Shown here: one piece after another, positions 16,321 to 48,002 of the stretch
Layout: every line of letters starts with the position of its first letter
How positions within the stretch are numbered: position 1 is the stretch's first letter
NCBI RefSeq assembly: GCF_003122365.1
Contig: NZ_CP029254.1
Span: forward strand, 3,429,001 to 3,493,000
Length of the DNA stretch: 64,000 nucleotides
Direction of reading: 5' to 3'
From: Streptomyces spongiicola
GTDB lineage: Bacteria > Actinomycetota > Actinomycetes > Streptomycetales > Streptomycetaceae
The notes under the pieces: generated by a model
The model's database searches: none
What the model was told of the DNA's origin: nothing
The model's input: the letters and a program-made list of their open reading frames with translations, nothing else
Program-made: the position numbers and the translations under genes

Positions 16321-16354
16321 ACCGAAGCCCCGGCGGTCGGGCCGGGGCTTCGGT
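16321..16354 (-). terminator. Original terminator of tRNA-Ser, now separated from it
   Basis: Perfect 14-bp stem (16321-16334 with 16341-16354) and a 6-nt loop, lying 7 bp outside attL. Transcription of the tRNA-Ser gene runs leftward, so this hairpin would have followed the tRNA before the 31.6-kb element was inserted between them. Confidence 0.7.
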
Positions 16355-16360
16355 GATGGT

Positions 16361-16420
16361 GCGGAGGCGGAGGGATATGAACCCTCGATGGGCTTTAAGG
16401 CCCAAACCGCATTAGCAGTG
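16361..16420 (-). repeat. attL: duplicated 3' part of tRNA-Ser
   Basis: Identical to 48003-48062 except position 16377 (A, versus T at 48019). It covers the acceptor 3' strand, T arm, variable arm and anticodon arm. On the tRNA strand the mismatch changes the T loop from TTCAAAT to TTCATAT, hitting conserved A58. Confidence 0.92.
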
Positions 16421-20024: not shown

Positions 20025-22148
20025 ATGACGGACAACGTGATCCGGCTCCACAAGGACATCCCCGACGAAGCGCTGACGGCGGCCGAGGAGAGGCAGGACG
20101 CCGAGCTGCGACAGACCGTCGTCGACGTCGTCGAGAACGCCGAACCGCGGCCGGTCGACAACCCCGAGCTCACAGCCCCGGAGGGCACGTGGCTGGCCCA
20201 GGTGCAGGCATACCTCGCCGAGGCCCCGCCGATCATCCCCACGTTCCTGCGCAACGGCGCCGAGTTCGCCGACGCCGCTCGCTGGACGGTCTCCTACTAC
20301 GGGCACGTGACCGCGTTCCACGCCCTCCGCACGCCCGTCTACCTGACACGGCTGCTGATCCGGTTCCCGCGCGGCACCGGCCGGCTGATCGTCAGGTGGG
20401 GCCGGTGGGTGGCCGACACCGAGGCCCGCCCGGTCGAAGCCAAGACCGCCGCGTCCGCGGACATCGAGGCGTGGCTCGCCCTGTCCCGCGAGCACTCCCG
20501 CCGCGTACGCCCGCGCCGTATCGCCTCCCTCACTGTCGCCACCGCCACCGGCATCACCACCCTGGCCAGCGCGTTCCTCGTACCCGGCTGGACCCTCACC
20601 GCAGCCGTGGCGGGTGCCGCGCTGGCCGGCCTGAACGGCAAGAAGCACGACGGCAAACCGCTCATCACCCGCTACGTCGCCACGAACGCGCTGCGCCGCC
20701 TCGACTCCACCGAGGTCTTCGAAGCCCTCGCCGCGATCGGCATCGAGGGCAAAAAGGGCCGCCGCGGCGTGGAGTTCGCCGCCGAGGTGATGCGGGACGG
20801 GCCCGGCTGGCGCGCCGAAGTCGACCTCCCCGCAGGCGTGGAAGCCACCGCCGTCCTGGAGAAGCGATCCGCGCTCGCCGCCGCCATGCGCCGACCAATC
20901 AGCACCGTGTGGCCGGAGGCCGACCGCGCAGCCCACCCAGGCCGCCTCGTGCTGTGGGTGGCGCAGCGTGACCCCGCGAAGGCCGGGCGGAAGCTGTGGC
21001 CGCTGATGAAAGACGGCCAGGCGGACGTGTACGAGCCGCTGCCGTTCGGGTTCGACCCACGCGGCAACCTCGTCGAGATCACCCTCATGTACTCCAACCT
21101 CCTCGTCGGCGGCATCCCCGGCTCCGGCAAGACGAGCTGCGCCCTCGCGATCGTCCTCGGCGTCGCCCTCGACCCCACCGCCGAGCTGTGGATCTACGAG
21201 CTGAAGGGTTCCGGCGACCTCGACGCGGTCAAGCCCGTCTGCCACCGGTACGTCTCCGGCGACGAGGACGAGGACCTGGAGGCCGCCCTCGCCGGCCTGC
21301 GGTCCGGGATCGCCGAGTACCAGCGGCGCGCGAAGTTCATCAAGGCCCTGCCCGCCGGCGAGGTACCCGAGGGCCGCAAGGTGACCCGGGCCCTGGCGGA
21401 GAAGTACCCCGAGCAGCAGCTCGGGCCGCGCGTCATCGTCGTCGACGAGGTCCAAGAGCTGTTCACCCACCCCGACTACAAGGACGAAGCCGCCGCCCTG
21501 TGCACCTGGCTGATCAAGAAGGGCCGCGCGTACGGCCTGATCCTGATCCTGCTCACCCAGAACCCCGACGCCCCCTCCCTGCCCACCTCCGTCTCCTCCA
21601 GCGTCGGCACCCGCCTGTGCCTCGCGGTCATGGACTGGCGAGCGAACAACAACGTGCTCGGTACCGGCGCCTACGACCGGGGCCTGCGCGCCACGGACAT
21701 CAGCGTCGACGAGCAGGGAACCGGCATCCTCGCCCGCGGCCGGGAAGGCACCACCGTGCGAGCCGCGTTCATCAAACAGACCGAGGCCGAGGAGATCGGC
21801 AAGCGAGCCCTGGCACTGCGCACCGCCGCCGGGACACTGTCCGGACAGTCGGCCGGACAGCGCGTGGAGGAGCACGACGTGGAGACGGTCCTGGACCACC
21901 TGCGGGTCGTATGGCCGGACGGCACCGAATCCGTGCACTCCCACCGGCTCGTCGAGGCCCTGGCCGCCTACCGACCGGACCTGTACAAGCCCTGGCTCGA
22001 CATGGACGCCGCAGGCGCCTCGACCGCGCTCAGCGCAGCGCTGAAGCCGTTCAAGGTGGCCACCCGGCAGCTGACCATCCGCGAGTGCTGCGGGGGCGCG
22101 AAGGGCGTGCGGTGGGCAGATGTCCCGGCGGTCGACGACGGCGAGTAG
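20025..22148 (+). CDS. FtsK/SpoIIIE-type DNA translocase (TraB/TraSA-like)
   Basis: A 707-residue conjugation ATPase. Two hydrophobic segments lie near residues 160-205 (SLTVATATGITTLASAFLVP, LTAAVAGAALAGL) as membrane anchor. The motor domain has Walker A GGIPGSGKTS near residue 364, Walker B VIVVDEVQEL near 475 and the sensor-like ILLTQNPDAP. Proteins of this type form hexameric pores and pump double-stranded plasmid DNA between hyphae without a relaxase. The C-terminal about 60 residues, which include a Cys pair, may be the wHTH that reads clt repeats. ATG 20025 has only a weak GGGA upstream. Confidence 0.88.
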   Translation: MTDNVIRLHKDIPDEALTAAEERQDAELRQTVVDVVENAEPRPVDNPELTAPEGTWLAQVQAYLAEAPPIIPTFLRNGAEFADAARWTVSYYGHVTAFHALRTPVYLTRLLIRFPRGTGRLIVRWGRWVADTEARPVEAKTAASADIEAWLALSREHSRRVRPRRIASLTVATATGITTLASAFLVPGWTLTAAVAGAALAGLNGKKHDGKPLITRYVATNALRRLDSTEVFEALAAIGIEGKKGRRGVEFAAEVMRDGPGWRAEVDLPAGVEATAVLEKRSALAAAMRRPISTVWPEADRAAHPGRLVLWVAQRDPAKAGRKLWPLMKDGQADVYEPLPFGFDPRGNLVEITLMYSNLLVGGIPGSGKTSCALAIVLGVALDPTAELWIYELKGSGDLDAVKPVCHRYVSGDEDEDLEAALAGLRSGIAEYQRRAKFIKALPAGEVPEGRKVTRALAEKYPEQQLGPRVIVVDEVQELFTHPDYKDEAAALCTWLIKKGRAYGLILILLTQNPDAPSLPTSVSSSVGTRLCLAVMDWRANNNVLGTGAYDRGLRATDISVDEQGTGILARGREGTTVRAAFIKQTEAEEIGKRALALRTAAGTLSGQSAGQRVEEHDVETVLDHLRVVWPDGTESVHSHRLVEALAAYRPDLYKPWLDMDAAGASTALSAALKPFKVATRQLTIRECCGGAKGVRWADVPAVDDGE

Positions 22149-22406: not shown

Positions 22407-22727
22407 CTACAGGGAACGGTCGGCGATCTGCCGCAGCCGCTCCTCGAACACCTTCTGCGCATCAGGAGTGAGCGTCGCGAGGGCTACGAGCGTGGTCAAT
22501 GCGACGTCGCACAACTCCTTCTGGACGTCCTGCCAGGTGTGACTCGCCCCCTTCCGGGGGTTCGCCGCCCACGCCCCGTGCAAGGCCTCCGCGACCTCAC
22601 CGAACTCCTCACCGATCTTCAGCACACGCAGCAGGCGCGCCTCGTCGGGCGACACAGGGCTCTCGGCGTCCAGCCAGTCCCGCAGCCGCTCAACGGTCTC
22701 CCAGGTGCTCGCGTCCAACGTCGTCAC
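22407..22727 (-). CDS. MazG-like nucleotide pyrophosphohydrolase
   Basis: A 106-residue protein with the MazG/dUTPase-type helical metal site: KIGEEFGEVAEALHG supplies the EExxE pair and KELCDVALTTLVALATL the second E/D helix. Such enzymes hydrolyse non-canonical or signalling nucleoside triphosphates. GTG 22727 is chosen; the frame continues upstream to 22814 but without a binding site. It points toward the tra gene and away from the HAD gene, so it is a separate unit in the cargo block. Confidence 0.78.
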   Translation of the reverse strand: MTTLDASTWETVERLRDWLDAESPVSPDEARLLRVLKIGEEFGEVAEALHGAWAANPRKGASHTWQDVQKELCDVALTTLVALATLTPDAQKVFEERLRQIADRSL

Positions 22728-22879
22728 CTTCTCTTCTTGTGATCTCGTATCAGGACCGGGCGTTGCGGCTCCCGCAACATTGCTTTCGAGGGGAGAGCGG
22801 CCCGCCCCCATCACCGCTGGCTCGGGGGCGGGCGAGTACCTTCACGGGTGTTCAGATGTACCCGGAAGGTGGTGGAAGC

Positions 22880-23530
22880 GTGGCACATCGCAACGACAGT
22901 CGACCTCTCTATCAGGGGCTGATCCTGGACTTCGTGGGGGTGCTGACCGCCGGCGTGTTGGAGGCGCATCGGACCTGGTGTGTCGGCCAGGGGCTCGCTC
23001 CTAACGCCTGGCGAGCCACTTTGGAGGACCACCCCGAGGGGCGCAGCCTGTACGCCGCGCTGGAGTCGGGACAGCTGACCCAGGCTGAGTGGAACAGGCG
23101 TACGGCGCCGCTGCTGGGTGTGGATGAACACCACAACCTGATGGGCCGGGCGTGGTCAGCCGTGCGTCCGGCGGACAGCATGGTCGCCCTGGCCCGGGCG
23201 GCCCGGGCGGCGGGGATGCGGGTGGCGTTGTTGTCGAACTCCTTTGGCCTGGAGCCCTACGACCCGTACGGAACGCTGGGCGTGTGGGAGCTGTTCGACG
23301 TAACAGTGATCTCCGAGCGAGAGGGCATCGCCAAGCCCGATCCGGCGATCTACCAGCGCACCCTGGAACGGATGGGCTTGCCCGGAGAGGTGTGTGTGTT
23401 CGTGGACGACAACCCGGTGAACCTTCCTCCGGCGGCAGACCTCGGGATCACCACGGTCCATGCCGACGGCCAGGCCGACACTGTGAAACGCCTGTCGAAT
23501 CTACTGGGGGTGCTTCCCGCCGCAGCGTGA
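22880..23530 (+). CDS. HAD-superfamily hydrolase
   Basis: A 216-residue HAD phosphatase-like protein (subfamily IA type). Motif I is ILDFVGVLT, with nucleophile D17 but Val in the usual second-Asp position, as in the epoxide-hydrolase N-terminal/YihX-like branch. Motif II is VALLSNS, motif III Lys lies in GIAKPDPAIY and motif IV is VFVDDNPVNL. GTG 22880 has GGTGGAAG close upstream; ATG 22856 is an alternative start. The substrate is probably a small phosphorylated metabolite. Confidence 0.82.
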   Translation: MAHRNDSRPLYQGLILDFVGVLTAGVLEAHRTWCVGQGLAPNAWRATLEDHPEGRSLYAALESGQLTQAEWNRRTAPLLGVDEHHNLMGRAWSAVRPADSMVALARAARAAGMRVALLSNSFGLEPYDPYGTLGVWELFDVTVISEREGIAKPDPAIYQRTLERMGLPGEVCVFVDDNPVNLPPAADLGITTVHADGQADTVKRLSNLLGVLPAAA

Positions 23531-23653: not shown

Positions 23654-24853
23654 ATGGGCAATTGGGACAGCTACACCACCGGGCAGCGGGTGAAACTCCT
23701 ACGCGGCACGGACTTCACGCAGGAGACGCTGGCCGAGGCCGCTGGGGTCTCAGTCGGTACCATACGCAAGATCGAGCAGGGCGGTTCCGTGAGCCTGCCG
23801 ACGCTACTTCGGGTCTCGGAGGCCCTTCACACCGACGTCTCGGTCCTCGTCGGCCAGCAGGCACCCCGCCGGGCCATGGCCGCTGCCGACCGAGCCGCCC
23901 TGCGGGGTCTGTCGGCGGCCGTGCACGACACAGCGGCCGGAATCGGCATCGATGCCGCGCCCCCGGAAGAGTCCGTGCACGCCGCCAAGCTGGCCGCGGC
24001 CTGGGAGCTGTACCAGCTTGGCGACTACACCGGTGCCGCACTGGCCGTGTCCCCGCTGGTACAGCAGGCAGCCGCGATGGTGAAAGCGATGCTGGCGGAC
24101 CGGGTGTGCGCGGCGCGCGGCGTCCTGTCGGATTCCTACCGGCTGGCCGCGTACTGCGCGAACCTCATGGGCGCGCGGGATCTCGCCTATGCGGCGGTCG
24201 GGCACGCGCAGACGCAGGCGGAGCTGGCGTCAGATCCGCTGCGGGTAGCGCTGGTCGCCTCGGGCCGGTCGTGGGTGTACCTGCGGGACTCGCGGCTTGT
24301 TCAGGCGCAGGAGGTCGCGGAGCAGGCCGCGAACGCGATCGAGCCCCGGTACACAGACAGCGACCCGAAGAGGCTCGCGGTGTACGGGTGTCACATCGTG
24401 TTCGCGTCCGTGGTGGCGTCCCGCAGAGGAGACTCGGATCGTGCGGGGGATCTCCTCAGCCATGCGCACGCAGTCGGGGCCCGGATGGGGAACGACATCA
24501 CCACGAACGGCGTGAGCTTCGGGCCGGTGTACGCGACTGCTCAGGCCGTAGGCATCAATGTGGCGCTCGGGCAGGCCGGGAAGGCCCTCACTCTGGGGAA
24601 GAGCCTGGGTGACCGGTCGGCGCTCCAGCAGGCGACGCAGAACCGGCTTGCGCTGGACCTGTCGATGGCGCAGTGCGAGGCTCGGATGTGGGACACGGCG
24701 CTGGACACCCTGATGTCGGTGTGCACCGAGCATCCGGAGTGGGCGCGGCACCAGGCGCTGACGGTGATCTTGGGGCGGCGTATCGGGAAGGCGAACAAGG
24801 GGGCGCTGCGGAAGCTGGGCGGCGTCCTTGGAGCAGACCTGCTGGCCGGCTGA
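23654..24853 (+). CDS. XRE-family regulator with TPR-like C-terminal region
   Basis: A 399-residue protein. An N-terminal XRE helix-turn-helix spans about residues 10-65 (GQRVKLLRGTDFTQETLAEA, GVSVGTIRKIEQG). The rest is all-helical with TPR-like repeats (LAAAWELYQLGDYTGAALAV, LVAQ-type helices, WDTALDTLMSV). This architecture is common in Streptomyces regulators that sense peptides or small ligands. It is upstream of the cargo cassette and is the best candidate for its regulator. Confidence 0.82.
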   Translation: MGNWDSYTTGQRVKLLRGTDFTQETLAEAAGVSVGTIRKIEQGGSVSLPTLLRVSEALHTDVSVLVGQQAPRRAMAAADRAALRGLSAAVHDTAAGIGIDAAPPEESVHAAKLAAAWELYQLGDYTGAALAVSPLVQQAAAMVKAMLADRVCAARGVLSDSYRLAAYCANLMGARDLAYAAVGHAQTQAELASDPLRVALVASGRSWVYLRDSRLVQAQEVAEQAANAIEPRYTDSDPKRLAVYGCHIVFASVVASRRGDSDRAGDLLSHAHAVGARMGNDITTNGVSFGPVYATAQAVGINVALGQAGKALTLGKSLGDRSALQQATQNRLALDLSMAQCEARMWDTALDTLMSVCTEHPEWARHQALTVILGRRIGKANKGALRKLGGVLGADLLAG

Positions 24854-25566: not shown

Positions 25567-25752
25567 ATGACCCGTCAGCAGGAGAACCCGCAGCTGCCCG
25601 TGACATTGCATGGCACGAGCGACCATCCGGGCCAACCGTCCGCTGCCCTACTGGAAAGGGCCCGGCACGGCTGGGACTCGTTCCTCGCTCGCTGCCAGGC
25701 CCCGGGGGAGAGCGGATCGGAGACAGATCCGGCCGGGGAGCCCGAGAGGTGA
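25567..25752 (+). CDS. Small hypothetical protein, first of a coupled cassette
   Basis: A 61-residue protein, GGAGA 7 nt before the ATG. It has a short helix with aromatic residues (SAALLERARHGWDSFLARCQ) and a Gly/Ser/Glu-rich end. Its TGA overlaps the next GTG (GTGA). It could be a peptide substrate or an accessory protein of the cassette; nothing in the sequence decides. Confidence 0.6.
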   Translation: MTRQQENPQLPVTLHGTSDHPGQPSAALLERARHGWDSFLARCQAPGESGSETDPAGEPER

Positions 25753-26090
25753 GTACGACTCAGCAGGTGCCCACGACCGTCGACATGGCCCGCGACAGCA
25801 ACCTCGCCGTGACCCTGGCCAACTACGGCACACCCACCGGCCTCACCGCCGATGAGCTGCGCAAGCGCCTCCGCGGCTACATCGGCCTCCTGGCCGAGCC
25901 GACCGGACAGTACGCGGAAGCCCTGGGGGACAGCCGGGCGAAGGACATCGCACAGAACACCGTCGAGCACGCGCAGCGGGTCGCCGCCGACCGGGGCGGC
26001 AACCCGGAGGCGAATCTCCGGCTGCTCGGCAAGTCCGTGGCGCTTCTCCTGCGGTACGCCGGCGACCACCAGAGGAGGCAAGCGCAGTGA
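25749..26090 (+). CDS. DUF6415-like protein
   Basis: A 113-residue helical protein. The segment ADELRKRLRGYIGLLAEPTG followed by AQRVAADRG and LRLLGKSVALLLRYAGDH fits the pattern of the DUF6415 'natural product biosynthesis' family as I remember it from Streptomyces. GTG start overlapping the previous stop; its stop overlaps the PhyH start (GTGA). The role is not established. Confidence 0.6.
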   Translation: MSTTQQVPTTVDMARDSNLAVTLANYGTPTGLTADELRKRLRGYIGLLAEPTGQYAEALGDSRAKDIAQNTVEHAQRVAADRGGNPEANLRLLGKSVALLLRYAGDHQRRQAQ

Positions 26091-26827
26091 GCGAACTGAC
26101 GCACCACGCCCGCACCGTGACCGGTCCGCTCGGGCACCGCGGAGTGCGCACGACCGTCGAGTGGGCGCCCCTGGGAGCGGCCCGCGCGCGTGCCGCTGCC
26201 CTCATCGCGGAGCACCGGGCGCACCAGACGGAGATCGTCCGCAACCCGCACCTCGACCAGGAGTGGGCCGCCGCCATGGTCCGGTCGCGCCTGCTGCTCG
26301 CCTCTGTGCGGGCGGTCCTCGGGCCCGACGTCGCCGTGGAGAACACCTTCCTCGTCGTGAAGTGGCCCGGCCGCGCCTTCGAGGTGCCGTGGCACCAGGA
26401 CGGCATCGACGCCCGGATCGAACTCGATCCCGCGCGGTCCGTCGCCGCCTGGCTCGCGCTCACCGACGCGACCGTGGCCTCCGGCTGCCTCGACGTCATC
26501 CCCGGCTCACATCAGGCCGGCTACCTCCCGTACGGCCCGGAGGCGGTCACCGGGCAGGCCCGGGGCCGCGCGGACACCGTGAGCGTGGAACCCGAAGGCC
26601 AACTCCTCAGCGTGCCCGTACACGCGGGGCGCGCGGTGCTGATGGACATGCGCCTTCTGCACCGTTCCCGGTCCAACACCAGCGACGGCGCCCGCGTCGG
26701 GTTGAACGTCCGCTACGTCGCCCCGGGCGCCTGCCTGCGGCGCGACCCCACATGCCCCAGCCTCGTCCCGGTCAGTGGGACGGGCTGGTCATCCACACCC
26801 CAAGAGGGAAGGGAGAGCTCCACGTGA
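26087..26827 (+). CDS. Phytanoyl-CoA dioxygenase (PhyH)-family Fe(II)/2-oxoglutarate oxygenase
   Basis: A 246-residue oxygenase. The iron triad is visible: H103 and D105 in WHQDG and the distal H192 in LLHRSRSN. An Arg about 12 residues later (ARVGLNVRY) is placed to bind 2-oxoglutarate. The family hydroxylates or otherwise oxidises small molecules and peptide-bound substrates. GTG start and GTGA overlaps with both neighbours show tight coupling with the DUF6415-like and 142-aa proteins. Confidence 0.85.
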   Translation: MSELTHHARTVTGPLGHRGVRTTVEWAPLGAARARAAALIAEHRAHQTEIVRNPHLDQEWAAAMVRSRLLLASVRAVLGPDVAVENTFLVVKWPGRAFEVPWHQDGIDARIELDPARSVAAWLALTDATVASGCLDVIPGSHQAGYLPYGPEAVTGQARGRADTVSVEPEGQLLSVPVHAGRAVLMDMRLLHRSRSNTSDGARVGLNVRYVAPGACLRRDPTCPSLVPVSGTGWSSTPQEGRESST

Positions 26828-27252
26828 GCATCGTCAAGGAGTTCATCGACCAGAACGCGCCGACCCGCGTGCGCGTGCTGAACGGCGAGGACACCGACGC
26901 CGGCCGCCGCGGCGACAAGAAGCCGATCACCCGCAGCGAGTGCACGTACTACTGCCCGGACGAGGCCACCGGTCGCCGGGTCATCGAGGCGCTGGAGGAG
27001 TCGGACAAGCGGCTCCGCGAGCGTCCCGAGGAGCTGATGCTCTGGGACTGGCAGGCCACCTACTGGGAGGCCGAGACGGACAACCCGAACGGCGGCGGCA
27101 CGGTGATCCTGGGCGTCGCCTGGTACGACCAGGAGTTCTTCGACGAGCGCCGCGACGCCTGGTTCGGCCGGATGCACCAGAAGATCTACCAGGACCTCGG
27201 CATCCCGCTGGAGAACATCGAGGTCTCGCACTGGGCGCGCCTCGCCGCGTGA
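26824..27252 (+). CDS. Hypothetical protein, last of the coupled cassette
   Basis: A 142-residue soluble protein starting GTG in a GTGA overlap with the PhyH gene. It is rich in aromatic and charged residues (WDWQATYWEAETDNPNGGG, VAWYDQEFFDERRDAWFGRM). A Cys pair (SECTYYCPD) could bind metal or form a disulfide. I do not recognise the family. The coupling suggests it acts with the oxygenase, as partner or substrate. Confidence 0.65.
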   Translation: MSIVKEFIDQNAPTRVRVLNGEDTDAGRRGDKKPITRSECTYYCPDEATGRRVIEALEESDKRLRERPEELMLWDWQATYWEAETDNPNGGGTVILGVAWYDQEFFDERRDAWFGRMHQKIYQDLGIPLENIEVSHWARLAA

Positions 27253-27271
27253 CCCGGTCCTGAACTGACAG

Positions 27272-27310
27272 TCGGGCCCTGTCTCCCCCGTGCCGGAAGA
27301 CGGGGCCCGA
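27272..27310. terminator. Bidirectional terminator between convergent genes
   Basis: TCGGGCCC (27272-27279) pairs with GGGCCCGA (27303-27310), with a weaker inner stem; it lies between the cassette and the convergent MFS gene. Confidence 0.65.
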
Positions 27311-27317
27311 CCCGTGT

Positions 27318-28568
27318 TCAGTCGTGGGCGAGGGCCTTCTCCCGCTCTTCCACCGGTGTGTGGCTTCGGCCCGACCGCAGGGCGAACAGGGTCCCTGCCC
27401 CGGCGATGGTCACCAGCGCGAAGCCGCTGATCGGGAAGGACGCGACGGGCGTGGTCGCGGCGAGGCCGGGGATGACGAGCATCGAGAGGGTTCCGGCGGT
27501 GCGGATGACGGTGAGGTCGACGCTCATCAGCCGCAGCCGGGCTGCCGGCGGGAACGAGGACAGGTGCGTGCTGAGGGTGACCTGGAGGAACGGGTTCACC
27601 ACGCCGAGGAGCGCGGAGACGAGCAGGAGGCTGGCCATCGAGTTCGTGAGGGCGATCGCGGAGAGCACGAGGCCGGAGGCGGCCCAGGTGCCGCAGTAGA
27701 ACGCGGGGCGGTTCGCGGGCAGCCGGAGGTTCCCGGCGAAGCCGTTCGCCGCCAGGGCCCCGGCACCGGTCGCGGCGAGCGCGGCTCCGTAGGCCGCGGC
27801 GCCCGCGTCCAGCCGCGCGGCGAGGAACGCGGGCAGGACCAGGGCGACGGAGTGGGCGGCGATCCCGGCCCCGTGCACGCCGATGGCGACGGCCGTGTCC
27901 GGTCGCATCCGCAGCAGCGCACGGGCCTGCGGCCGGATCGTCGAGCCGGCCTCCTTGGTGTCACTGCTCGCGGCCGGCGTCGTCCTGGCGGCCAGCAGGA
28001 CGAGGACGAGGGCGGACACGACGAACGTCGCTCCGTCGAGCCAGAACAGCGATTGCCTGGGCACGAGCGTGAGGAGGACGCCGGCGGCACCGGGACCGGC
28101 GATCCGGGCGATGCGGCCGGTGAGGTCCATGAGCCCGTTCACGGCCTGGACGTCGCGCTTGTCAACAAGCTCCGGCACGAGCGCGCCGAGGTTCGGGTCG
28201 AACAGTGCGCCGCTCATGCCGAGGAGGACCGCGCAGGCGAGCATTCCCGGGACGCCGAGCGCTTCCCACGCCAGCGGCAGTGCGGCCACGAGCCCGGCTC
28301 GGGCGACGTCGACGACCGCGAGGCGGCGCAGCGAGGCGAAGCGGGCCACCACCTTGCGGCCGACCGTCCCCAGGACGATGTACGGCACGGACTCGGCGAC
28401 CGCGACCAGTCCCATCGCGGCGGCCCCGGCCTCCTGCCAGGCGATCCACATGATCGCCATGGCGTAGAGGCGGTCACCGAACACGCTCAAGGTCTGTGCT
28501 CCCCACAGGAGCAGAACCGGCCCCTGACGCAGCAGCCGTACGTAACCCAAGATCGATCTCCGCCCCAT
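27318..28568 (-). CDS. MFS exporter
   Basis: A 416-residue 12-helix major-facilitator protein of the MefA/EntS type (MGRRSILGYVRLL start, LLWGAQTLSVFGDRLYAMAI in helix 1, AVNGLMDLTGRIARIAGPGA in the 4-5 region). It is divergent from the kinase-like gene (108-bp spacer) and convergent with the oxygenase cassette. It probably exports the cassette's product or gives self-protection. ATG 28568 is chosen because upstream residues are low-complexity; the ribosome binding site is weak. Confidence 0.82.
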   Translation of the reverse strand: MGRRSILGYVRLLRQGPVLLLWGAQTLSVFGDRLYAMAIMWIAWQEAGAAAMGLVAVAESVPYIVLGTVGRKVVARFASLRRLAVVDVARAGLVAALPLAWEALGVPGMLACAVLLGMSGALFDPNLGALVPELVDKRDVQAVNGLMDLTGRIARIAGPGAAGVLLTLVPRQSLFWLDGATFVVSALVLVLLAARTTPAASSDTKEAGSTIRPQARALLRMRPDTAVAIGVHGAGIAAHSVALVLPAFLAARLDAGAAAYGAALAATGAGALAANGFAGNLRLPANRPAFYCGTWAASGLVLSAIALTNSMASLLLVSALLGVVNPFLQVTLSTHLSSFPPAARLRLMSVDLTVIRTAGTLSMLVIPGLAATTPVASFPISGFALVTIAGAGTLFALRSGRSHTPVEEREKALAHD

Positions 28569-28676
28569 GGAAGCACGAAGCCCGGCGCCGAAACCGGCTG
28601 CCGGGAATGCCCGCCACCCTACGACACCACCGCCACCCTGTATCGCAAACGCACCCACGCCACCCGAGGAGAACCC

Positions 28677-29531
28677 GTGTCCCGAGAGCACCGCGCCGCC
28701 GAGGAACAGCTCTGCCCGTACGACGCAGTCCAGGCCGCCGAGGCCCTATGCGGGCCGGTCGTCCTGGAGCCGGTCACCGACCGGCGCGGATCGGCCGTGT
28801 GGCGAGCCGTCGGCCCGAACGGGGCGGTGGCGGTGAAGGCCGGAGAGGGGGACGGCGCGCTCGTGACCGCGCGGGAGGGCGAGGTCGCCGACCGCTTGGG
28901 GCTGCTGGGGACCCACGGCGTCAGCGACGGCGTCGCCTGGCTCGTGACCCCCTGGTTCGACGGACCGTCCACCCGGGAGGTCTTCGCCCCGGTGCGCGCC
29001 GGCGACAGCGACCGGGCTGCGGTCCGCGCGGCGGCGGTTGACCTCTGCCGCGCGGTCGCCGACCTCCACGCGCGCGGGTGGGTGCACGCCGACCTCCAGC
29101 CCGAGCACGCGATCCACACGAAGGACGGCGTAAGGCTGATCGACCTGTCGTGGGCCTGGCGGCCAGGGTTCGAGCCGAGCGAGATGTTCCGCGGCGGCAT
29201 CCCGCATCTCCTCGCCCCCGAGCTGGCCGCAGCGGTGGTCGCCGGCGTCCGCCCGGCCGCGCCGAGCCCGGCCGCCGAGGTGTACACGCTCGCGGGTGTG
29301 CTGTGGACCTGCATCACCGGGCGCTGGCCGCTCGACTACGAGCGGGCGGGCCTCCTGCCGCGCGAGCTCGGAGCGGCGGGAGTCCGCGAGGCGATCGCTA
29401 CGGGCGGGATCCCCCTGGACGCGGACCGTCCTTGGCCGGAACTGCAGCAGCTCCTCGAGGGCGCGCTACTGGCCCCGGCCGGAGAGCGGCCAACGGCGGC
29501 TGAACTCGCCGGACAGATCTCCGATGTCTGA
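28677..29531 (+). CDS. Protein-kinase-like protein
   Basis: A 284-residue protein with a eukaryotic-type kinase fold. The beta-3 Lys is in GAVAVKAGEG, the catalytic loop is HADLQPEHAI (H137, D139) and the metal loop is DLS (D156) in place of DFG. The usual Asn after the catalytic loop is His. The C-lobe has APE-like LLAPELAA and a YTLAGVLWTCITGRWP helix. It could phosphorylate a small molecule or peptide, or be a pseudokinase. GTG 28677 follows GAGGAG at 5 nt. Confidence 0.78.
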   Translation: MSREHRAAEEQLCPYDAVQAAEALCGPVVLEPVTDRRGSAVWRAVGPNGAVAVKAGEGDGALVTAREGEVADRLGLLGTHGVSDGVAWLVTPWFDGPSTREVFAPVRAGDSDRAAVRAAAVDLCRAVADLHARGWVHADLQPEHAIHTKDGVRLIDLSWAWRPGFEPSEMFRGGIPHLLAPELAAAVVAGVRPAAPSPAAEVYTLAGVLWTCITGRWPLDYERAGLLPRELGAAGVREAIATGGIPLDADRPWPELQQLLEGALLAPAGERPTAAELAGQISDV

Positions 29532-29555
29532 GGTCGCTTCGTCCTGCACCAGCAA

Positions 29556-30290
29556 GTGAACGCCCCGTCTTCGACACGAGAGAGAACGATCGAATTGAAC
29601 GCTTACGCAGCGAATGAGGAGAGCTGGGTCCGCTACGGACAGATTCAGTTGGACCGTGGCTACATGCCGCCGGTCCCCGACGTGATCAGGTGGGGGTTCT
29701 GGGACGGCGTAGGACCGGGTGCCGAAGTGCTCGGCCCAGTCCGCGGAAAGAGAGTCCTGGCCGTCGGATCGGGCCCCGGCCACCAGGCCGTCCACCTGGC
29801 CCGCAGGTGCGGCGCCCTCGTAGACGCTGTCGAACTGTCCCCGACTCAGCACCAGCGAGCTGTAGAGCACTTCGGCAACGAGTCCGGCGTCCAGTTCGTG
29901 AACGCCGATGTCGTGGAGCACCTACACACCGCCATCCCGTACAACGCCGCGTACGGCATCTGCACGCTCGGGTGCGCCGACCCCCGGTACGTTCTGCCGG
30001 CGCTCGCGAACGGGCTCTGTGCCGGCGCTCCCCTCGTCTTCTCCGCCCTGCACACCAACCTTCACGGGCACGGCCCTTCCTCCGTGATCACGCCCCGGGA
30101 GGAGCTGATCCGCATCGCTGGGCAGGAGCCGATCCCGGTGCAGATGTGGGTACTCACGCCACATCTGTGGGAGGACGTTCTCGGCGAATACGGGTTCCGT
30201 GTGGAGTCAGTCGAGGTGCTTCGGGCTCCCGACGCCGACAACCCGGTTGCCGTACAGCTTGTCCGTTCTCGCCGTGCCCCTGACGCGTAG
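29556..30290 (+). CDS. Class I SAM-dependent methyltransferase
   Basis: A 244-residue Rossmann-fold methyltransferase with motif I VLAVGSGPGHQAVHLA, an acidic strand end (VDAVELSP), motif II-like VQFVNADV and a post-motif (LCAGAPLVFSAL). Its N-terminus (NEESWVRYGQIQLDRGYMPP) is of the small-molecule methyltransferase kind. It is downstream of the kinase-like gene with a 24-bp gap, probably one transcript. The GTG at 29556 lacks a ribosome binding site; a TTG at 29595 preceded by GAGAGAA is an alternative. Confidence 0.78.
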   Translation: MNAPSSTRERTIELNAYAANEESWVRYGQIQLDRGYMPPVPDVIRWGFWDGVGPGAEVLGPVRGKRVLAVGSGPGHQAVHLARRCGALVDAVELSPTQHQRAVEHFGNESGVQFVNADVVEHLHTAIPYNAAYGICTLGCADPRYVLPALANGLCAGAPLVFSALHTNLHGHGPSSVITPREELIRIAGQEPIPVQMWVLTPHLWEDVLGEYGFRVESVEVLRAPDADNPVAVQLVRSRRAPDA

Positions 30291-31228: not shown

Positions 31229-31703
31229 GGCGGGCCTTTCAAGAGCAAGAGAGCGGCAAGGAAGGTGTATACAGCGGCACCGGCTCTGACCAGGGCAGAG
31301 GTGTAACGCAACAAGGTCGCGAATTCACCGGACTGTAGCGTTCTGTCAGCTTTACAGCAGCTTTTGTCAGGGTGGCTGTGGGCGGGACGCCCGGGGACGG
31401 TCCGCCGGTCGCCGGAGCACGGGCGGACAGTGGCCAGGAGCAGGAGCATGTGGACACAGATCATCCCAATGAGCGCGTTCGCATCTGGAGCCGGAACAAG
31501 GCGGGTGGGCGGTGCTGGCTGACGCAGGAGGGATTCGCCAGTCTGGGATGAGGTCGACAGCAGGCCGTCGTCCGTGAGTGCCCTCCTTGATCCGTGTCGT
31601 CGATGGTTGTCTGATTTGGGCCAGCCCGCTCCAGAGGAGGAGTGAACTGGTTACGATCGAGGGCGACGGGGCCTCTCGGCTCTTGGCTGTGGGGAAGGAT
31701 CCT
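31229..31703. other. Control region between RHH gene and the defence operon
   Basis: 475 bases. On the minus strand a TATACA -10-like element lies within the 8-bp palindrome TGTATACA (31266-31273), about 40 bp from the RHH start. A small plus-strand ORF (GTG 31372 or GTG 31450 to 31551; ends VRIWSRNKAGGRCWLTQEGF plus five residues) might be a gene remnant but has no ribosome binding site. The helicase frame is open from 31578, and GAGGAGG occurs at about 31633 without a usable in-frame start. Confidence 0.4.
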
Positions 31704-34700
31704 ATGCGCGCCGATGATGTCGAGCCTGGGGTTCGCCTGACCGGTCTGGCCTCTCAGCCGGTCACCGTCGTGGCTGTCGCGCCGGTCGGTGACGCTCTAC
31801 AGATCACAGCCCGCGACGACACAGGGCATCTGTTCGAACAGGTGCTCTTCCCCGACGACATCGCTGGGCTGCGGCGTGAAGCGCCCAGATCACGATGGTC
31901 GTTCGACGCCGCCCCTGAGCAGTTCCGTCTGGCGGCTGAGGCGCTGCGCATGCGACACGCGGGGTTGTCGGACCCGATGCTGGCGGTGGAGACCAGCGAC
32001 ATCGACCCGCTGCCCCACCAGATCCGCGCCGTCTACGGCACCCTGCTGGCCCAGACCGGCTCCCTGCGCTTCCTGCTCGCGGACGACCCGGGCGCAGGAA
32101 AGACGATCATGGCAGGCCTGTACCTCAAGGAACTGTTGCTGCGCGGTGACGTGCAACGTTGCCTGATCGTCGCGCCCGGTGGGCTGGTCGAGCAGTGGCA
32201 GACCGAACTCGCGGAGAAGTTCGGGATCGAGATGGCGATCTTGACGCGCGACCTCGCGGAGGCCGACCGCGACGGCGACCCGTTCCGGCACAACCCGATG
32301 CTGATCGCGCGCATGGACCAGCTGGCCCGCAACCAAGAGTGGCAGACCGTACTTGCGGAGTCGGAATGGGACCTCATCGTGGTGGACGAGGCCCACCGCA
32401 TGAGTGCCTCCTGGTTCGGCAACGAACTCAAGCGCACCCGCCGCTACGAGCTGGGGCAGCTTCTCGGAACGATCACCCGGCACTTCCTGCTGATGACCGC
32501 GACTCCACACTCGGGGTCAGAAGCAAGCTTCCAGACCTTCCTCGCGCTACTGGACCCCGACCGGTTCGCCGGCCAGTACCGACAGGGTGTGCACTCCACA
32601 GACACCACCGGACTGATGCGCAGGATGATCAAGGAGGACCTGCTCACCTTCGACGGCAAGCCGCTCTTCCCCGAGCGGTTGGCCGAAACCGTCGAGTACA
32701 CGCTCTCCCCAGCGGAGATGCGCCTGTACGAGGAGGTCACCGAGTACGTACGCACGGAGATGAACCGGGCCGAGCAAGCCGACGGCAAGCGGCGCACCGT
32801 CGGCTTCGCCCTCACGGTCATGCAGCGGCGCCTGGCATCCAGCCCCGAAGCGATCTACCAGTCGATCCGGCGCCGCGCCGCCCGCCTGCGCACCCACCGC
32901 GAGCAGATACTGGCGGGCCCGTTCGTTCCGCCACCCGAGACAACGTCCTTCGACCCCGACGACTTCGACTCCGACGAGCTGGGCGCCGCCGAGCTGGAGC
33001 AGCTGGAGAGCGAGGTCCTGGACGCCGCTACCGCCGCGCGCACCGCGGCCGAGCTGGACGCTGAGCTCGCGGTCCTGGCACGTCTTGAAGAGGTCGCCCA
33101 ACAGGTTCGTGCCTCGGGTGAGGATCGCAAGTGGCAGGAGTTGCGTTCCCTCGTCCTCAAGGCCCGCGAAGAGGGTCTGAGCGAAGACAGCCACGCCCCA
33201 CACAAGATCATCGTCTTCACCGAGCACCGCGACACCCTCGACTACCTCGCAGGCCGTATCACCACCCTGCTGGGCGGCGATACGGATGTCGTGTGCACCA
33301 TCCATGGCGGCACCGCGCGACAGGCTCGTCGGGAGATCCGCACCAAGTTCACCAACGACCCGCGCTGCCACGTCCTGATCGCCACCGACGCCGCCGGCGA
33401 AGGGCTGAACCTTCAGGCCGCGCACCTGATGGTCAACTACGACCTCCCGTGGAACCCCAACCGAATCGAGCAGCGCTTCGGACGTATCCACCGCATCGGC
33501 CAGCGCGAGGTCTGCCGCCTGTGGAACCTCGTAGCCTCGGAGACCAGGGAGGGCCAGGTCTTCCAGCGCCTGCTGACCAAGATCGAGCAGCAGCGCCGCG
33601 CCTACCGCGGCAAGGTCTTCGACGTCCTGGGCGAGAACGCCTTCGCGGACGAGCCGCTGCGTGACCTGCTCATGCGAGCCATCCGCTACGGCGAGCAGCC
33701 CGAGGTCCGCGCCTACCTGGACCAGGTCATCGACAAGTCCGTGGCCGACGGCCTACAGGATCTGATCAAGGAACGCGCCCTGGCCACCCCGGAGATCGGG
33801 CTGGAAGAGCTGGCCGAGCTACGCCGACAGATGGATGAGGCCCGCGCCCGGCGGATGCAGCCCCATTTTGTGCAGGCCTTCGTCATGGAGTCCCTGCGTG
33901 CCCTGGGCGGGCGCGCATCCAAACGGGAGAAGGACCGGTTCGAGCTGACCCAGGTACCCGCAGTCCTGCGCGAGGGTCGGCGTACGGTCAGCCCGCGTTA
34001 TGGACGCATCACCTTCGAGCCCTCGGCCGTGGTCATGCCCGGCCGCCCGGACGCCGAGCTCATAGCGCCCGGTCATCCGCTGATGGACGCGATCATCACC
34101 GAGATCCTGAACAGGTACGGCGACGCCCTGACGCGTGGAGCGACCTTCCTGGACCGGACCGTCACCACTCCCCAGCTCGTGTTCGCCCTGCTGGAAGAAC
34201 TCTCGGACGGGCGCGGCACTGCAATCAGCAAGAGGTTCGAGTACGTCTCCGTGCTGCCCGACGGAACCGCACAGCCGGCAGGCCCTGCCCCGTACCTCGA
34301 CCTGTCCCTGCCCACAGAACTGAACCTTGAGCAGCACGCCGCACTGGCCCTTGCCATCAACTCCGAGCTGTCCTCGGCCTGGCTTGCCGACGGCGTTGAG
34401 AAGATCGCCCAGATCTGGGCGATCCAGCACGGCCTGCCCGAGCACCGAGCCGACGTCGTCGCTCGCGTCGTCCCGGCTGTCGAGCGGACGCGCAAGCTGG
34501 TGCGTCAGCGGCTGCTGGCCCAGATGAACTACTGGGACGGCGAATCGATCAAGCTCGCCGAGGCGCAGGCGGCAGGCAAGAAGATCCGTATCTCGCCGGC
34601 CACCGCACGTGATCGCGCCCGGGCGCTGGAGGCCCGGCTCGAACGCCGCCAAGACGAGCTCGATCGCGAAAACCAGGTCAACGTGCACCCGCCGCAGATC

Positions 34701-35174
34701 ATCAGCGCAGCGCTCGTCCTACCCGCCGCGGTCGTTCCGGGTACCGCCGGCGAGCAGCCGACACCTGACAGCTTCGCCCTGGACACCACCGTCACCGAGC
34801 GTCGTGCCGTAGATGCCGTACTGGCTGCCGAGCGTCGACTCGGCCGGGTGCCTGAGGAGATGGCGCACTCCAACAAGGGCTTCGACATCCGTTCCAGCAA
34901 GCCCGACGGCCACCTGATCTTCATCGAGGTCAAGGGGCGTGTGCTGGGCGCTGACAGCTTCACTGTCACCACCAGCGAGGTCGGCTACGCCAAGAACGCC
35001 GAGCCCGACTACCGGCTCGCCCTCGTCGCCGTCGACCCCGACACCCCCGACGGGTCGAACGACCGGGTCCGCTATGTACTCAACCCCTTCGCCGACCTCG
35101 TCCTGGACAAGTACGTCGACGACCTGCGCCGCAAGTGGAAGGCCGAGTGGGACCGCGGTGTAGAGCCCCTCTGA
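31704..35174 (+). CDS. SNF2-family helicase with C-terminal DUF3883 nuclease-like domain
   Basis: A 1156-residue defence-type helicase. An N-terminal SH3-like region (VRLTGLASQPVTVVAVAPVG) precedes the motor: Walker A LADDPGAGKT near residue 127, DEAH box near 228, motif III TATPHSG, then the C-lobe with TDAAGEGLNLQAAH and QRFGRIHRIGQ. Residues about 1040-1120 fit DUF3883, with a PD-(D/E)xK-like core: GFDIRS, 10 residues, IFIEVKG. It would translocate on, and probably cut, non-self DNA. ATG 31704 is chosen because GGGGAAGG lies 5 nt upstream; the frame extends to a GTG at 31578. It is followed by the methyltransferase gene after 79 bp. Confidence 0.88.
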   Translation: MRADDVEPGVRLTGLASQPVTVVAVAPVGDALQITARDDTGHLFEQVLFPDDIAGLRREAPRSRWSFDAAPEQFRLAAEALRMRHAGLSDPMLAVETSDIDPLPHQIRAVYGTLLAQTGSLRFLLADDPGAGKTIMAGLYLKELLLRGDVQRCLIVAPGGLVEQWQTELAEKFGIEMAILTRDLAEADRDGDPFRHNPMLIARMDQLARNQEWQTVLAESEWDLIVVDEAHRMSASWFGNELKRTRRYELGQLLGTITRHFLLMTATPHSGSEASFQTFLALLDPDRFAGQYRQGVHSTDTTGLMRRMIKEDLLTFDGKPLFPERLAETVEYTLSPAEMRLYEEVTEYVRTEMNRAEQADGKRRTVGFALTVMQRRLASSPEAIYQSIRRRAARLRTHREQILAGPFVPPPETTSFDPDDFDSDELGAAELEQLESEVLDAATAARTAAELDAELAVLARLEEVAQQVRASGEDRKWQELRSLVLKAREEGLSEDSHAPHKIIVFTEHRDTLDYLAGRITTLLGGDTDVVCTIHGGTARQARREIRTKFTNDPRCHVLIATDAAGEGLNLQAAHLMVNYDLPWNPNRIEQRFGRIHRIGQREVCRLWNLVASETREGQVFQRLLTKIEQQRRAYRGKVFDVLGENAFADEPLRDLLMRAIRYGEQPEVRAYLDQVIDKSVADGLQDLIKERALATPEIGLEELAELRRQMDEARARRMQPHFVQAFVMESLRALGGRASKREKDRFELTQVPAVLREGRRTVSPRYGRITFEPSAVVMPGRPDAELIAPGHPLMDAIITEILNRYGDALTRGATFLDRTVTTPQLVFALLEELSDGRGTAISKRFEYVSVLPDGTAQPAGPAPYLDLSLPTELNLEQHAALALAINSELSSAWLADGVEKIAQIWAIQHGLPEHRADVVARVVPAVERTRKLVRQRLLAQMNYWDGESIKLAEAQAAGKKIRISPATARDRARALEARLERRQDELDRENQVNVHPPQIISAALVLPAAVVPGTAGEQPTPDSFALDTTVTERRAVDAVLAAERRLGRVPEEMAHSNKGFDIRSSKPDGHLIFIEVKGRVLGADSFTVTTSEVGYAKNAEPDYRLALVAVDPDTPDGSNDRVRYVLNPFADLVLDKYVDDLRRKWKAEWDRGVEPL

Positions 35175-35198
35175 CACACAAGATCCACACGTTTCATC

Positions 35199-35231
35199 CG
35201 CTCGAACGCCACCCGAGGCACGGTTCGAGCG
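35199..35231 (+). terminator. Hairpin between helicase and methyltransferase genes
   Basis: Perfect 9-bp arms CGCTCGAAC / GTTCGAGCG (35199-35207, 35223-35231), 15-nt loop, 25 bp after the helicase stop. It may attenuate read-through. Confidence 0.45.
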
Positions 35232-35241
35232 CCTCGGAATC

Positions 35242-35254
35242 TAGATTGAGCAGG
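35242..35254 (+). promoter_or_regulatory. Possible leaderless promoter of the methyltransferase
   Basis: TAGATT (35242-35247) fits a -10 element and the GTG start codon follows after 6 nt, the spacing of leaderless transcripts. There is no ribosome binding site before this GTG. No convincing -35 is visible. Confidence 0.4.
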
Positions 35255-38115
35255 TGAACACCGCAGTGCAGCCCGGAACGCCGTCAGGCTCTGTCCCTCG
35301 ACGCAAGCTCATCGAGGTCTCCCTCCCTCTGGAGGACATCAACGCGGAGTCCGCCCGTGAGAAGTCGATCCGCCACGGGCACCCCTCCACACTGCACCTG
35401 TGGTGGGCCCGCCGGCCGCTGGCGGCGGCACGGGCCGTGCTGTTCGCCCAGCTCGTCGACGACCCGTCTTCGCATCCCGAGCTGTTCCCCACGGAGGAGG
35501 AGCAGAAGAAGGAGCGCGAGCGCCTACACGGGATCATCCGACGACTGGTGGTCTGGGAGAACATCAACGACGAGGGCCTGTATCGGGAAGCCCGCGAGGA
35601 GATCCTCAAGAGCACGGGAGGGAACCCGCCTGCAATCCTGGACCCGTTCGCGGGCGGCGGAACGATCCCGTTGGAGGCGCAGCGCCTGGGCCTGGAGGCT
35701 CACGCCAGCGACCTCAACCCGGTGCCCGTACTGATCAACAAGGCCCTCATCGAGATCCCGCCGAAGTTCGCGGGAAAGCCGCCCGTGTTCCCGGGAGCTG
35801 CGGAGACTCGATTGGGGCCTTGGCCGCGTGCCACAGGTCTGGCGGAGGACGTGCGCCGCTATGGCGCGTGGATGCGCGACCGGGCACAGGAGCGGATCGG
35901 GGACCTGTATCCGAAGGCGCAGGTGCCTGTGCTGGGAGGCGACGGCAAGCCCACGGGGAAGACGACCGAAGCCACCGTGATCGCGTGGATCTGGGCCCGG
36001 ACAGTGATCTGCCCGAACCCGGCGTGCGGCATTCAAATGCCACTGGTGCGTTCTTGGTGGCTGGGCAAGAAGAAGGGCAAGGAAGCGTACGTCGTCCCGA
36101 AGGTAGTCGACGACGTGGCGGCGCGCGGCGGACGGCGTGTGGAGTTCAGCATCGGGCACGACCCGAAGCAGGCCCCCACGACAACGAGCGATGGAACCAT
36201 GACGACGAGCAAGGGTGCTACTTGCGTCGCCTGCGGAGGGTTCGCCACTCTGGCTTACATCCGTTCCGAAGGAGCCTCCAGCCGGATTAGCGCTCAACTA
36301 CTTGCCGTCGTCGCAGAAGGCAACCGTCGCCGCATCTACCTAGCTCCCGATGAGAAGCATGCACAGGCGGCAAATACCCCGCGGCCGGCGAACCCGCCCA
36401 CCGGTTCTGTCGCGAATAATCCACGCTGGTTCTCTCCTCCCCAGTATGGCTTTACCGAGTTCTCCGACCTGTTCACAAACAGGCAACTCACGACGCTCAC
36501 GACTCTGAGCGACCTCGTCAGCGAGGCCCGAGAACAGCTACATGCCGACGCCATCGCGGCAGGTCTCACTCGTGGTGAACCTCTGAGCAATGGCGGGGAC
36601 GCTGCAGAGGCGTACGCTGACGCGGTAGCAACATACCTCGGGATGGCAGCAAGCCGTTTGTCTGACTACGGCGGAACGATCTCCACCTGGATGCCCGACC
36701 CAAAGAACGAAGGAATTCGAAACACTTTCGCCCGCCAGGCTCTCCCAATGACTTGGGATTTCGCAGAGGCGAACCTGTTTAGCGAATCTTCCGGCAACTT
36801 CGGGTTCATGCTTCGCGGAATTGCCCGCGTACTTGATGAACTTCCCGCACGGAACGGCGGGAACGCGGAGCAGGCCGACGCCGCCAGTCGCGATTACACG
36901 AATCTCCTGATTGCGACCGATCCACCTTATTACGATAATATCGGATACTCAGACCTATCCGACTATTTCTACGTCTGGCTGCGGCGTTCCCTACGCGACA
37001 TTCACCCAGACTCGTTCGGCACAATGCTTGTTCCGAAGGCGGAAGAACTCATCGCCAACCCGTACCGCCATGGAGGAAAGGAGAGTGCGGAGAGATTTTT
37101 TGAGGAAGGTTTCGAACAAGTCTTTGCGCGGGCGCGGCAGGCAGCCTCGCCAGATTACCCGATCACTACCTTCTACGCCTTCAAGCAGGCCGAGCTAGAG
37201 AAGGAAGGAGTCGCTTCCACAGGGTGGTCCACCTTCCTGGAGGGCATGGTTCGCAATGGCTGGACGATCACCGCGACGTGGCCTGTTCGCTCGGAGCGTG
37301 GCGGTCGAATGATCTCGGTGGGTACGAATGCTCTCGCCTCATCGATCGTGTTGGCTCTCCGCCCCCGTGAGACAACCGCCCCGGCAACGGACCGCACGGG
37401 GTTCCTGGTTGCGCTGCACTCGGAACTGGAGGAGGCGCTACCTCGTATCCGTGAGGGCGCGATCGCTCCGGCGGACCTGCGTCAGACGATCCTCGGCCCA
37501 GGCATGGCGGTGTTCTCCCGCTTCTCCCGCGTGCTGGAGGACGACGGCTCCACAATGTCGGTGAAGACCGCACTGGCGCTGATCAACCAGACATTCGACG
37601 CGTTGCAGAACGAGCACGACGCCGAACTGGACGCCGACACCCGGTTCTGCCTGGACTGGTTCCGCTCCTACGGCTGGGACACCCGCCCCTACGGTGATGC
37701 CGAGTCGCTGGCTGTGCCCCTGGGCCTCTCGGTGGACGGAATCGCCCGCGGTGGAACCCTCACCTCCGGCGGCGGAAAGGTCGCGCTGATCAAGCCGCAG
37801 GATCTCGCCCCCGGATGGGATCCGGCCCACGATGACCGGCTGTCCCTGTGGGAGGTCACGTGCCATCTGGCACGCGCCTACGCCACCGAGGGGCGCGAGG
37901 AGGCCGCCAGGCTCATGGTCGGGGTGAAGGGGAGGGTGGACCTGGACGAAGTCAACCGCCTGGCCACCCGCCTGTACGAGCTGATGGAGTCTCAAGACTC
38001 CTCGACCGCTGGCCTGTTCAATGGGCTCGGCGGGGCGTGGGCCGATGTCTCCGCGACATCGACCACGATCCGCCCGGCCGCGGTGGCCGAGACGCTCTTT
38101 GGGGAGGAGATCTGA
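35254..38115 (+). CDS. DUF1156 DNA methyltransferase
   Basis: A 953-residue adenine-type DNA methylase of the COG1743/DUF1156 family. The N-terminal DUF1156 signature is present ([40 protein letters not shown]). SAM motif [14 protein letters not shown] is at residue 130 and catalytic DPPY at 556-559. Between them lies a Zn-ribbon (CPNPACGI and CVACGGFA). Bases about 36240-37250 are much AT-richer than the rest of the gene. The protein presumably marks host DNA for the helicase/ATPase partners. Its stop overlaps the DUF499 start (TGATG). Confidence 0.88.
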
Positions 38116-41100: not shown

Positions 41101-41528
41101 GCACGCTCCTCGTCCAGCCGGCACGAGCAGTCGCTCAGCGTGCACGAGTCGTCGCCACCCCACCGATCGAGCCGGTCACCCCGTCGGACGGCGACAACGG
41201 CAGTGAAGGCAGCACCCCGCCCCCCGGCCCCGGCACCAACACGCCTACCCCCGGCCCCGGGGCTCAGCCTCCGGTGCCGCCGGCCAAGAGGGTCACGCGC
41301 AGGTTCTGGGGCGTCAAGACCCTCAGGCCCAACCGCCCCGCCGCAGATTTCGCCAACATCCAGCAGGAAGTCCTCGCACACCTCGAGGCCGCCGACGGCG
41401 TCCAGCTCGAGGTCCGCATCGAGATCACCGCAACCACCGCCGACGGATTCACCGAACAGCAGGTGCGTACCGTCCGCGAGAACGCCGCCCAACTGAAGTT
41501 CGAAGACAGCGGTTTCGAAGAAAACTGA
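38115..41528 (+). CDS. DUF499 AAA+ ATPase
   Basis: A 1137-residue protein of the COG1483/DUF499 family. Walker A is TQFGGGKTHSMLALYHL near residue 253, Walker B LILIDEWVAYARQL near 375, and LMLVVSIPASDS a sensor-like strand. The C-terminal part has a Pro/Gly-rich linker (about 1025-1060) and a short alpha-beta end. In other genomes DUF499 ATPases are neighbours of DUF1156 methylases and large helicases in defence islands. GGGGAGGAG precedes the ATG, which overlaps the methylase stop. Confidence 0.88.
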   Translation: MALTNNEKVLRGFDQLLEGMRPWVDMRMSAQAPPGKDWIELIAAEDVAKFGTAKTYSRDDVRFLLRIVTERWKVFEKDLSRPQSALASELRETANAAHHGQKFSSDDTYRALDTIERLLTVIGAGDEADAVAKTRMEHQREVFEKQTRNRLTREAQAVKVAGMQAGTAIKPWREVIRPHADVIRGQFSAAEFAADLYAVAHGHTAAPEYLNPAEFFSRTYLTSGLSDLLTRALKRLSGDAGASPVINLQTQFGGGKTHSMLALYHLFSEGLATSALSQAVQDVVHASLPTAEGDPLRSLDVKRVTLVGTKLSPSQPIPKDDGTQVRTLWGELAWQLGDREAFDRVAIADATGTDPGDALDAVVRDVVAGGKSVLILIDEWVAYARQLVGRDDLPGGSFATQHTFAQHLTEMAKSIPGVMLVVSIPASDSLDNGGGGSALEVGGPNGHVALETLQHTIGRNADDWRPANNIESFEIVRRRLFEEPDAVALADIAAVAKQYVKYYQENTGFFPRETTTGGYEQRIRAAYPIHPELFDRLYEDWSTLPKFQRTRGVLRLMSVVINSLWAANDTTPLITPGAVPVHDTQVFSEITKYLDDNWKPVVDKDVDGEGATPVQIDRDRPSFGQRALTRRVARSVFIATVPTLRSAHKGVDIQQLRLGTAVPGDVINHIGDARALLGQRATYFYEDGDRSWYDLAASVSRVAADRAAGYSEADVHATIVERLKATERASRASFGAVHAAPLDTGDIPDSEVLKLVVLHPKFTWGKDASTATDFAARLLREAGTGQRQRRNMLVMVAADRDTYPELEGVVREYRAWKSIADEAEELELSAQQRKQSVTRARQLDAAVDDRVRAAFTAALIPTELPGQKPTISFTRVARDGGSLAERVTAALKAKGWITPVLGTTLVRMALEGALANAWGKGHVRFGDLWSWYTQYPYLKRLPNRQVLEQAVLGAADVLLWQQDAFALADGYDEATDEYQNLWIHGDKPDPSFVTNGTLLVQPARAVAQRARVVATPPIEPVTPSDGDNGSEGSTPPPGPGTNTPTPGPGAQPPVPPAKRVTRRFWGVKTLRPNRPAADFANIQQEVLAHLEAADGVQLEVRIEITATTADGFTEQQVRTVRENAAQLKFEDSGFEEN

Positions 41529-47994: not shown

Positions 47995-48002
47995 GTCAAG
48001 GG

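Follow-up and report, generated by a model that had tools for sequence, protein, structure and literature searches.

Actinomycete integrative and conjugative elements (AICEs) of 11.9–36.3 kb are on record that carry resistance genes, restriction–modification systems and decayed cargo (PMC9513070). Within the PhyH family of Fe(II)/2-oxoglutarate (2OG) oxygenases, SnoK and EvdO2 are small-molecule oxygenases. Class III/IV lanthipeptide synthetases unite lyase, kinase and cyclase in one protein. We analyzed a window of 64,000 nucleotides from Streptomyces spongiicola (positions 3,429,001 to 3,493,000 of contig NZ_CP029254.1), focusing on the genes at positions 25567–30290. Judged by comparison with 21 other loci, the conserved core consists of a PhyH oxygenase, an unnamed protein of 142 residues (p142), an exporter of the major facilitator superfamily (MFS) and a kinase. 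Our preferred reading, to which we assign a probability of only about 0.45, is that of a mobile mini-cluster: PhyH and p142 would make a small molecule, the MFS protein would export it, and the kinase would be an optional part in protection or regulation.

The genes for PhyH (26087–26827, plus strand; Pfam PhyH 2.3e-26) and p142 (26824–27252, plus strand) are the last two of four plus-strand open reading frames (ORFs; 61, 113, 246 and 142 aa) that run head to tail, each overlapping the next by GTGA (25749, 26087 and 26824). On the minus strand, the MFS gene (27318–28691, true start probably near 28586; Pfam MFS_1/MFS_3 5.5e-16/1.5e-15) is convergent with p142 and divergent from the kinase-like gene (28677–29531, plus strand; Pfam Pkinase weak and below cut-off, NCBIfam LanL/AfsK kinase regions), which is followed by a methyltransferase gene. 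Intergenic spaces, where any remain, are about 70–110 bp. This layout had been described in an earlier sequence-only reading, as had the presence of tailoring-type genes without a scaffold enzyme and of a 142-aa protein without a family, and our analysis bears it out on all these points; p142 has homologues but no match in Pfam or NCBIfam.

We compared 22 non-redundant p142 loci (designated by L numbers), i.e., the window and 21 others. Homologues of p142 are rare: they were found in 6 of 296 Streptomyces genomes and 14 of 395 Streptomycetaceae, and in this genome only among a phylum-wide sample of 396. Named carriers include S. fimicarius, S. longispororuber and Actinacidiphila glaucinigra. 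The sequence-only reading had suggested searching other genomes for co-occurrence of p142 with PhyH, and the association was indeed found, beyond what chance would give. Each of the 14 full-length p142 genes with 60% identity or more directly follows this PhyH gene, which is broken at two of the loci (L029, L033). The same MFS gene is present on the opposite strand at 12 of these 14 loci (11 of 13 excluding the window); at L061, its position is taken by a different MFS gene. Kinase sequence accompanies 11 of the 14 (10 of 13 excluding the window) and is broken or partial in L029 and L030. The gene order PhyH–p142–MFS(−)–kinase recurs. Between the window and its nearest relative, L028, DNA homology is confined to about 25.78–29.51 kb, from DUF6415 through the kinase. 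For the four core genes, protein distances intercorrelate with r between 0.76 and 0.96, values reached in 0–12 of 2000 permutations. The oxygenase, p142, the exporter and usually the kinase move jointly among Streptomyces and Kitasatospora genomes.

The sequence-only reading had treated 25.57–30.29 kb as a single cassette, which proved too wide. The class I methyltransferase (29556–30290, plus strand; Pfam Methyltransf_25) is a neighbor outside the conserved unit: no other p142 locus has it, and the family to which it belongs occurs, unlinked, in 73 of 150 Streptomyces genomes. DUF6415 (25749–26090, plus strand; Pfam PF19979 4.2e-07) was rejected as a core gene and is regarded as optional; it is scattered over 41 of 61 sampled Streptomyces genomes and, among the other p142 loci, occurs only at L028 and L034. 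The 61-aa ORF (25567–25752, plus strand; GTGA overlap with the next ORF, no Pfam match) also lies outside the core and was discarded as a precursor candidate, having marginal matches only outside the window and not standing upstream of PhyH at other loci. In the window, a putative XRE-type regulator (23654–24853, plus strand; Pfam HTH_3 7.4e-09) is encoded upstream of the cassette. At the other loci, most upstream genes are regulatory, encoding NsdA-type XRE proteins, HATPase-like proteins and small proteins.

The cassette PhyH has the residues of a PhyH-type Fe(II)/2OG oxygenase (HxD...H plus Arg). In 11 PhyH copies the WHQD motif and the distal His, which supply the iron ligands, and the 2OG-binding Arg are invariant. 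Searches against PDB sequences matched 6zyk (4.1e-17), SnoK (1.3e-12), EvdO2 (1.5e-10) and SyrB2 (4.2e-07). It shares the PhyH domain with the SnoK, EvdO2 and SyrB2-like enzymes, and its metal and 2OG ligands are complete. It is not a halogenase of the SyrB2 type because the Asp ligand is present in all PhyH copies, and the halogenase model TIGR01762 gave 49 bits where its cut-off requires 226. Unlike the setting of PhyH tailoring oxygenases, the cassette contains no recognized polyketide, nonribosomal peptide synthetase or carrier-protein gene. At another locus (L037, 7909–10658), a PhyH relative with 42% identity adjoins a radical S-adenosylmethionine (SAM) gene and a split gene for a peptide methyltransferase of the ATP-grasp-system type.

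The window exporter is of the MFS_3/H+-antiporter drug-efflux type by Pfam and NCBIfam. Decayed loci offer the strongest case for a split of roles. Three remnants (L031, L038, L068) have lost PhyH together with the beginning of p142 and keep the MFS gene without internal stops; L031 also keeps the kinase. This would be expected if export protects, and these three cases are suggestive of a division of roles between producer and exporter. The S. spongiicola genome itself contains a second, degraded copy (L036, 9784–10185; about 4396284–4396685), in which the first ~57 residues of PhyH are joined in frame to p142 residues 57–142. Site-specific integration within p142 was set aside as the cause of truncation: breakpoints differ, and the copy in the same genome looks as if it arose by deletion at an HLR stretch that both genes share.

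Retention of the MFS gene in remnants can also be read the other way, i.e., PhyH, p142 and the kinase would inactivate or sequester a toxin made by others, the MFS protein would pump it out and XRE regulators would respond. For such a resistance or detoxification cassette speak, besides the remnants, the recurring p142–MFS pairing among distant relatives, the occurrence of p142 alone on some plasmids, and antibiotic-resistance genes among described AICE cargo (PMC9513070). However, joint loss of PhyH and p142 with the MFS gene staying fits production better, and an NCBIfam scan of the cassette proteins yielded no known resistance family above cut-off. We consider this explanation unlikely.

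p142 is the best conserved protein of the core. Between the window and L028 it is 89% identical, compared with 77% for MFS, 64% for PhyH and 56–58% for the kinase, and its pN/pS in this comparison is 0.28. Its GC content at third codon positions is 0.99 (cassette neighbors 0.90–0.92), which hints at high expression. Conservation extends through the C-terminus, with no variable, core-like end. Two AlphaFold models from shallow alignments (mean pLDDT, the predicted local distance difference test, of 69 and 73.5) show a ferredoxin-like β-α-β-β-α-β arrangement. A sequence-profile search of the PDB found nothing significant, and fold searches with the models gave generic ferredoxin-like matches only, among them eIF4E, M20 peptidase lid domains and IsdG. 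The ABM or dimeric α+β barrel proteins IsdG and ActVA-Orf6 have the same element order (ActVA-Orf6 Z 7.6 and 8.1), but p142 matches them neither in sequence nor in Pfam, and unrelated folds tie on Z. As many unrelated ferredoxin-like folds score equally, the p142 fold reveals no function.

More distant p142 relatives (25–35% identity) are located on plasmids of Paraburkholderia megapolitana, Tunicatimonas pelagia and Roseibium aggregatum. In P. megapolitana, the relative lies between two MFS genes, beside YcaO–TfuA, ThiF and JmjC_2 genes. This plasmid (L072, 2500–14836, with L039) carries two YcaO–TfuA sets, two ThiF genes, MoaD/ThiS, several MFS genes and four cupin genes, of which the three tested are of JmjC_2 type. 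In T. pelagia, the p142 relative follows a Trypco2–trypsin pair, and in R. aggregatum it adjoins BfiI-type restriction genes. Another distant p142 (L069) follows an MFS gene. In phages no p142 was found; a wider search of viral contigs gave one locus (L058) and then nothing more.

A further alternative is a system akin to ribosomally synthesized and post-translationally modified peptides (RiPPs), in which PhyH would hydroxylate, and the LanL/AfsK-like kinase phosphorylate, p142 itself or an unlinked peptide. The sequence-only reading had pointed to the 61-aa or 142-aa protein as a possible substrate, and a precursor role for either is not supported: no small ORF is conserved across loci, and the conserved C-terminus of p142 is unlike that of a leader–core precursor. 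At 20 loci, the ORFs preceding PhyH or p142 encode regulators or are unrelated to one another, though a precursor gene might lie elsewhere. No class-defining maturase (radical SAM, YcaO, LanM/KC, ATP-grasp, lasso) is found among the cassette proteins by Pfam or NCBIfam. The RiPP reading is weak: the loci yielded no precursor ORF that is conserved, and the most conserved gene, p142, lacks a variable core. We nevertheless keep it as a rival, though a rather improbable one, because several distant relatives have RiPP-like surroundings: the YcaO–TfuA genes in Paraburkholderia, the 42% PhyH relative beside radical SAM and ATP-grasp-system methyltransferase genes, and the radical SAM and HExxH genes beside the truncated p142 in L038. 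Also in line with it are the weak similarity of the kinase to LanL/LanKC kinase regions and the methyltransferase of the variant locus L034, which is nearest to the daptide type. At L038 (4691–7783), on a plasmid of Kitasatospora cathayae, an FxsB-like radical SAM gene, a 46-aa ORF and a peptide β-hydroxylase of the aKG-HExxH type stand in a row beside the truncated p142 and the MFS gene; this row is likely a RiPP cluster.

Hanks-type hallmarks of the kinase, i.e., the ATP-binding Lys, HxD, metal-binding Asp and APE, align in 12 of 13 copies, with L029 frameshifted. There are departures: the catalytic-loop Asn is replaced by His (HADLQPEH), DFG reads DLS, DLA or similar, and APE is SPE in L034 and L067. 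The best NCBIfam similarities are to LanL (6.7e-11) and AfsK (1.2e-08), both far under the model cut-offs, and PDB matches are PAK4-type kinases. LanKC and LanL are multidomain synthetases, whereas the cassette protein has the kinase region alone, about 285–288 aa, and is thus no lanthipeptide synthetase. The cassette kinases fall into two types with ~35% mutual identity. Members of their family occur in 45 of 199 Streptomyces genomes; at eight kinase loci that we opened (~39–59% identity) no other cassette gene stood alongside. As the family occurs elsewhere without other cassette genes, we read the kinase as an optional recruit. Several of the stand-alone Hanks-like kinases in Streptomyces (L073–L082) have XRE-type regulators and GNAT acetyltransferases as neighbors.

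The sequence-only reading had missed that these genes sit on an integrative element. A 69-bp direct repeat at 16352–16420, a copy of the 3' part of tRNA-Ser, is 94% identical to the right att repeat at 47994–48062, which overlaps tRNA-Ser(gct) at 48001–48095. Between the repeats lie genes for a tyrosine integrase (46432–47940, plus strand; Pfam Phage_integrase 1.5e-14) and a TraB-like FtsK/SpoIIIE DNA translocase (20025–22148, plus strand; Pfam FtsK_SpoIIIE 1.8e-05, above cut-off). From the att repeats at tRNA-Ser, the integrase and the FtsK-like TraB we therefore conclude that the cassette is cargo of an AICE-type element of 31.6 kb. The element resembles AICEs in its integrase beside a tRNA, its att repeats, its TraB and its size, but no replication initiator (RepSA/RepAM/Prim-Pol) was identified; the candidate ORFs, none of them assigned, lie between 42 and 45 kb. 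In the literature we found no account of such a cassette as AICE cargo, and nothing relevant on PhyH with kinase and MFS or on DUF6415. Elsewhere on the element, an ORF at 44099–44887 (minus strand) resembles a BRO-N-type phage antirepressor, by eye and in its N-terminus only. A MazG-like protein (22407–22814, minus strand) overlaps a HAD-family hydrolase ORF (22499–23530, plus strand) at the latter's listed start; the true start of the hydrolase is probably further in than 22499.

The same element carries a complete Hma defence system (HmaA, HmaB, HmaC; PADLOC models) at 31578–41528, which starts ~1.3 kb past the methyltransferase. This proximity raises the idea of a conflict or anti-phage module, with kinase and p142 acting in defence beside Hma. 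Weak kinase matches to PD-T4-6 (best 1.5e-07) and MAD6 in a PADLOC scan, which did not include PhyH and p142, are compatible with it, as are the p142 relatives after the Trypco2–trypsin pair and next to BfiI-type restriction genes. However, neither PhyH nor a drug-type exporter is a usual component of defence systems, and we regard such a role as very unlikely.

We return to the mobile mini-cluster, taken as one for a small specialised metabolite that is probably bioactive. PhyH and p142, the latter translated in overlap with PhyH here, would form a biosynthetic pair that modifies a small molecule supplied by the host; export of the product would fall to the MFS pump, and the Hanks-like kinase might be an optional protective or regulatory component. 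In favor of this reading we count the recurrent gene order, the correlated protein distances, the invariant PhyH ligands, the drug-efflux type of the exporter, the remnants, the p142 relatives near MFS genes in Paraburkholderia and at L069, and the GC content of p142 at third codon positions. Every step past gene content is inference. Several points weigh against this proposal. There is neither a scaffold enzyme nor a product. At the variant loci L034 (8102–10760) and L067 (9878–12054), p142 at 43–46% identity occurs with a methyltransferase and a kinase, the methyltransferase standing in place of PhyH and MFS. This methyltransferase is closest to the daptide type, under that model's cut-off, and between the L034 enzyme and the window methyltransferase no relationship was detectable (BLAST E 0.11). 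The kinase family is also found without p142, several members being near XRE-type regulators and GNAT genes, and the p142 relatives on the Tunicatimonas and Roseibium plasmids stand without PhyH or MFS. Finally, MFS retention in three remnants could be chance.

A bolder extension, which we judge unlikely, is that p142 founds a new family of enzymes or carriers working with non-haem iron oxygenases across phyla. It would imply a new class of small exported metabolites that have no known scaffold enzyme and are spread by mobile elements.

If a compound is made, the cassette would represent a short natural-product pathway without a scaffold enzyme on which standard cluster rules could key, with a protein family that has no Pfam or NCBIfam model at its center. 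A single element here also bears a phage-defence system together with a putative metabolite cassette. The conserved core gives the exact genes for functional work, and the exporter-only remnants bear directly on self-protection.

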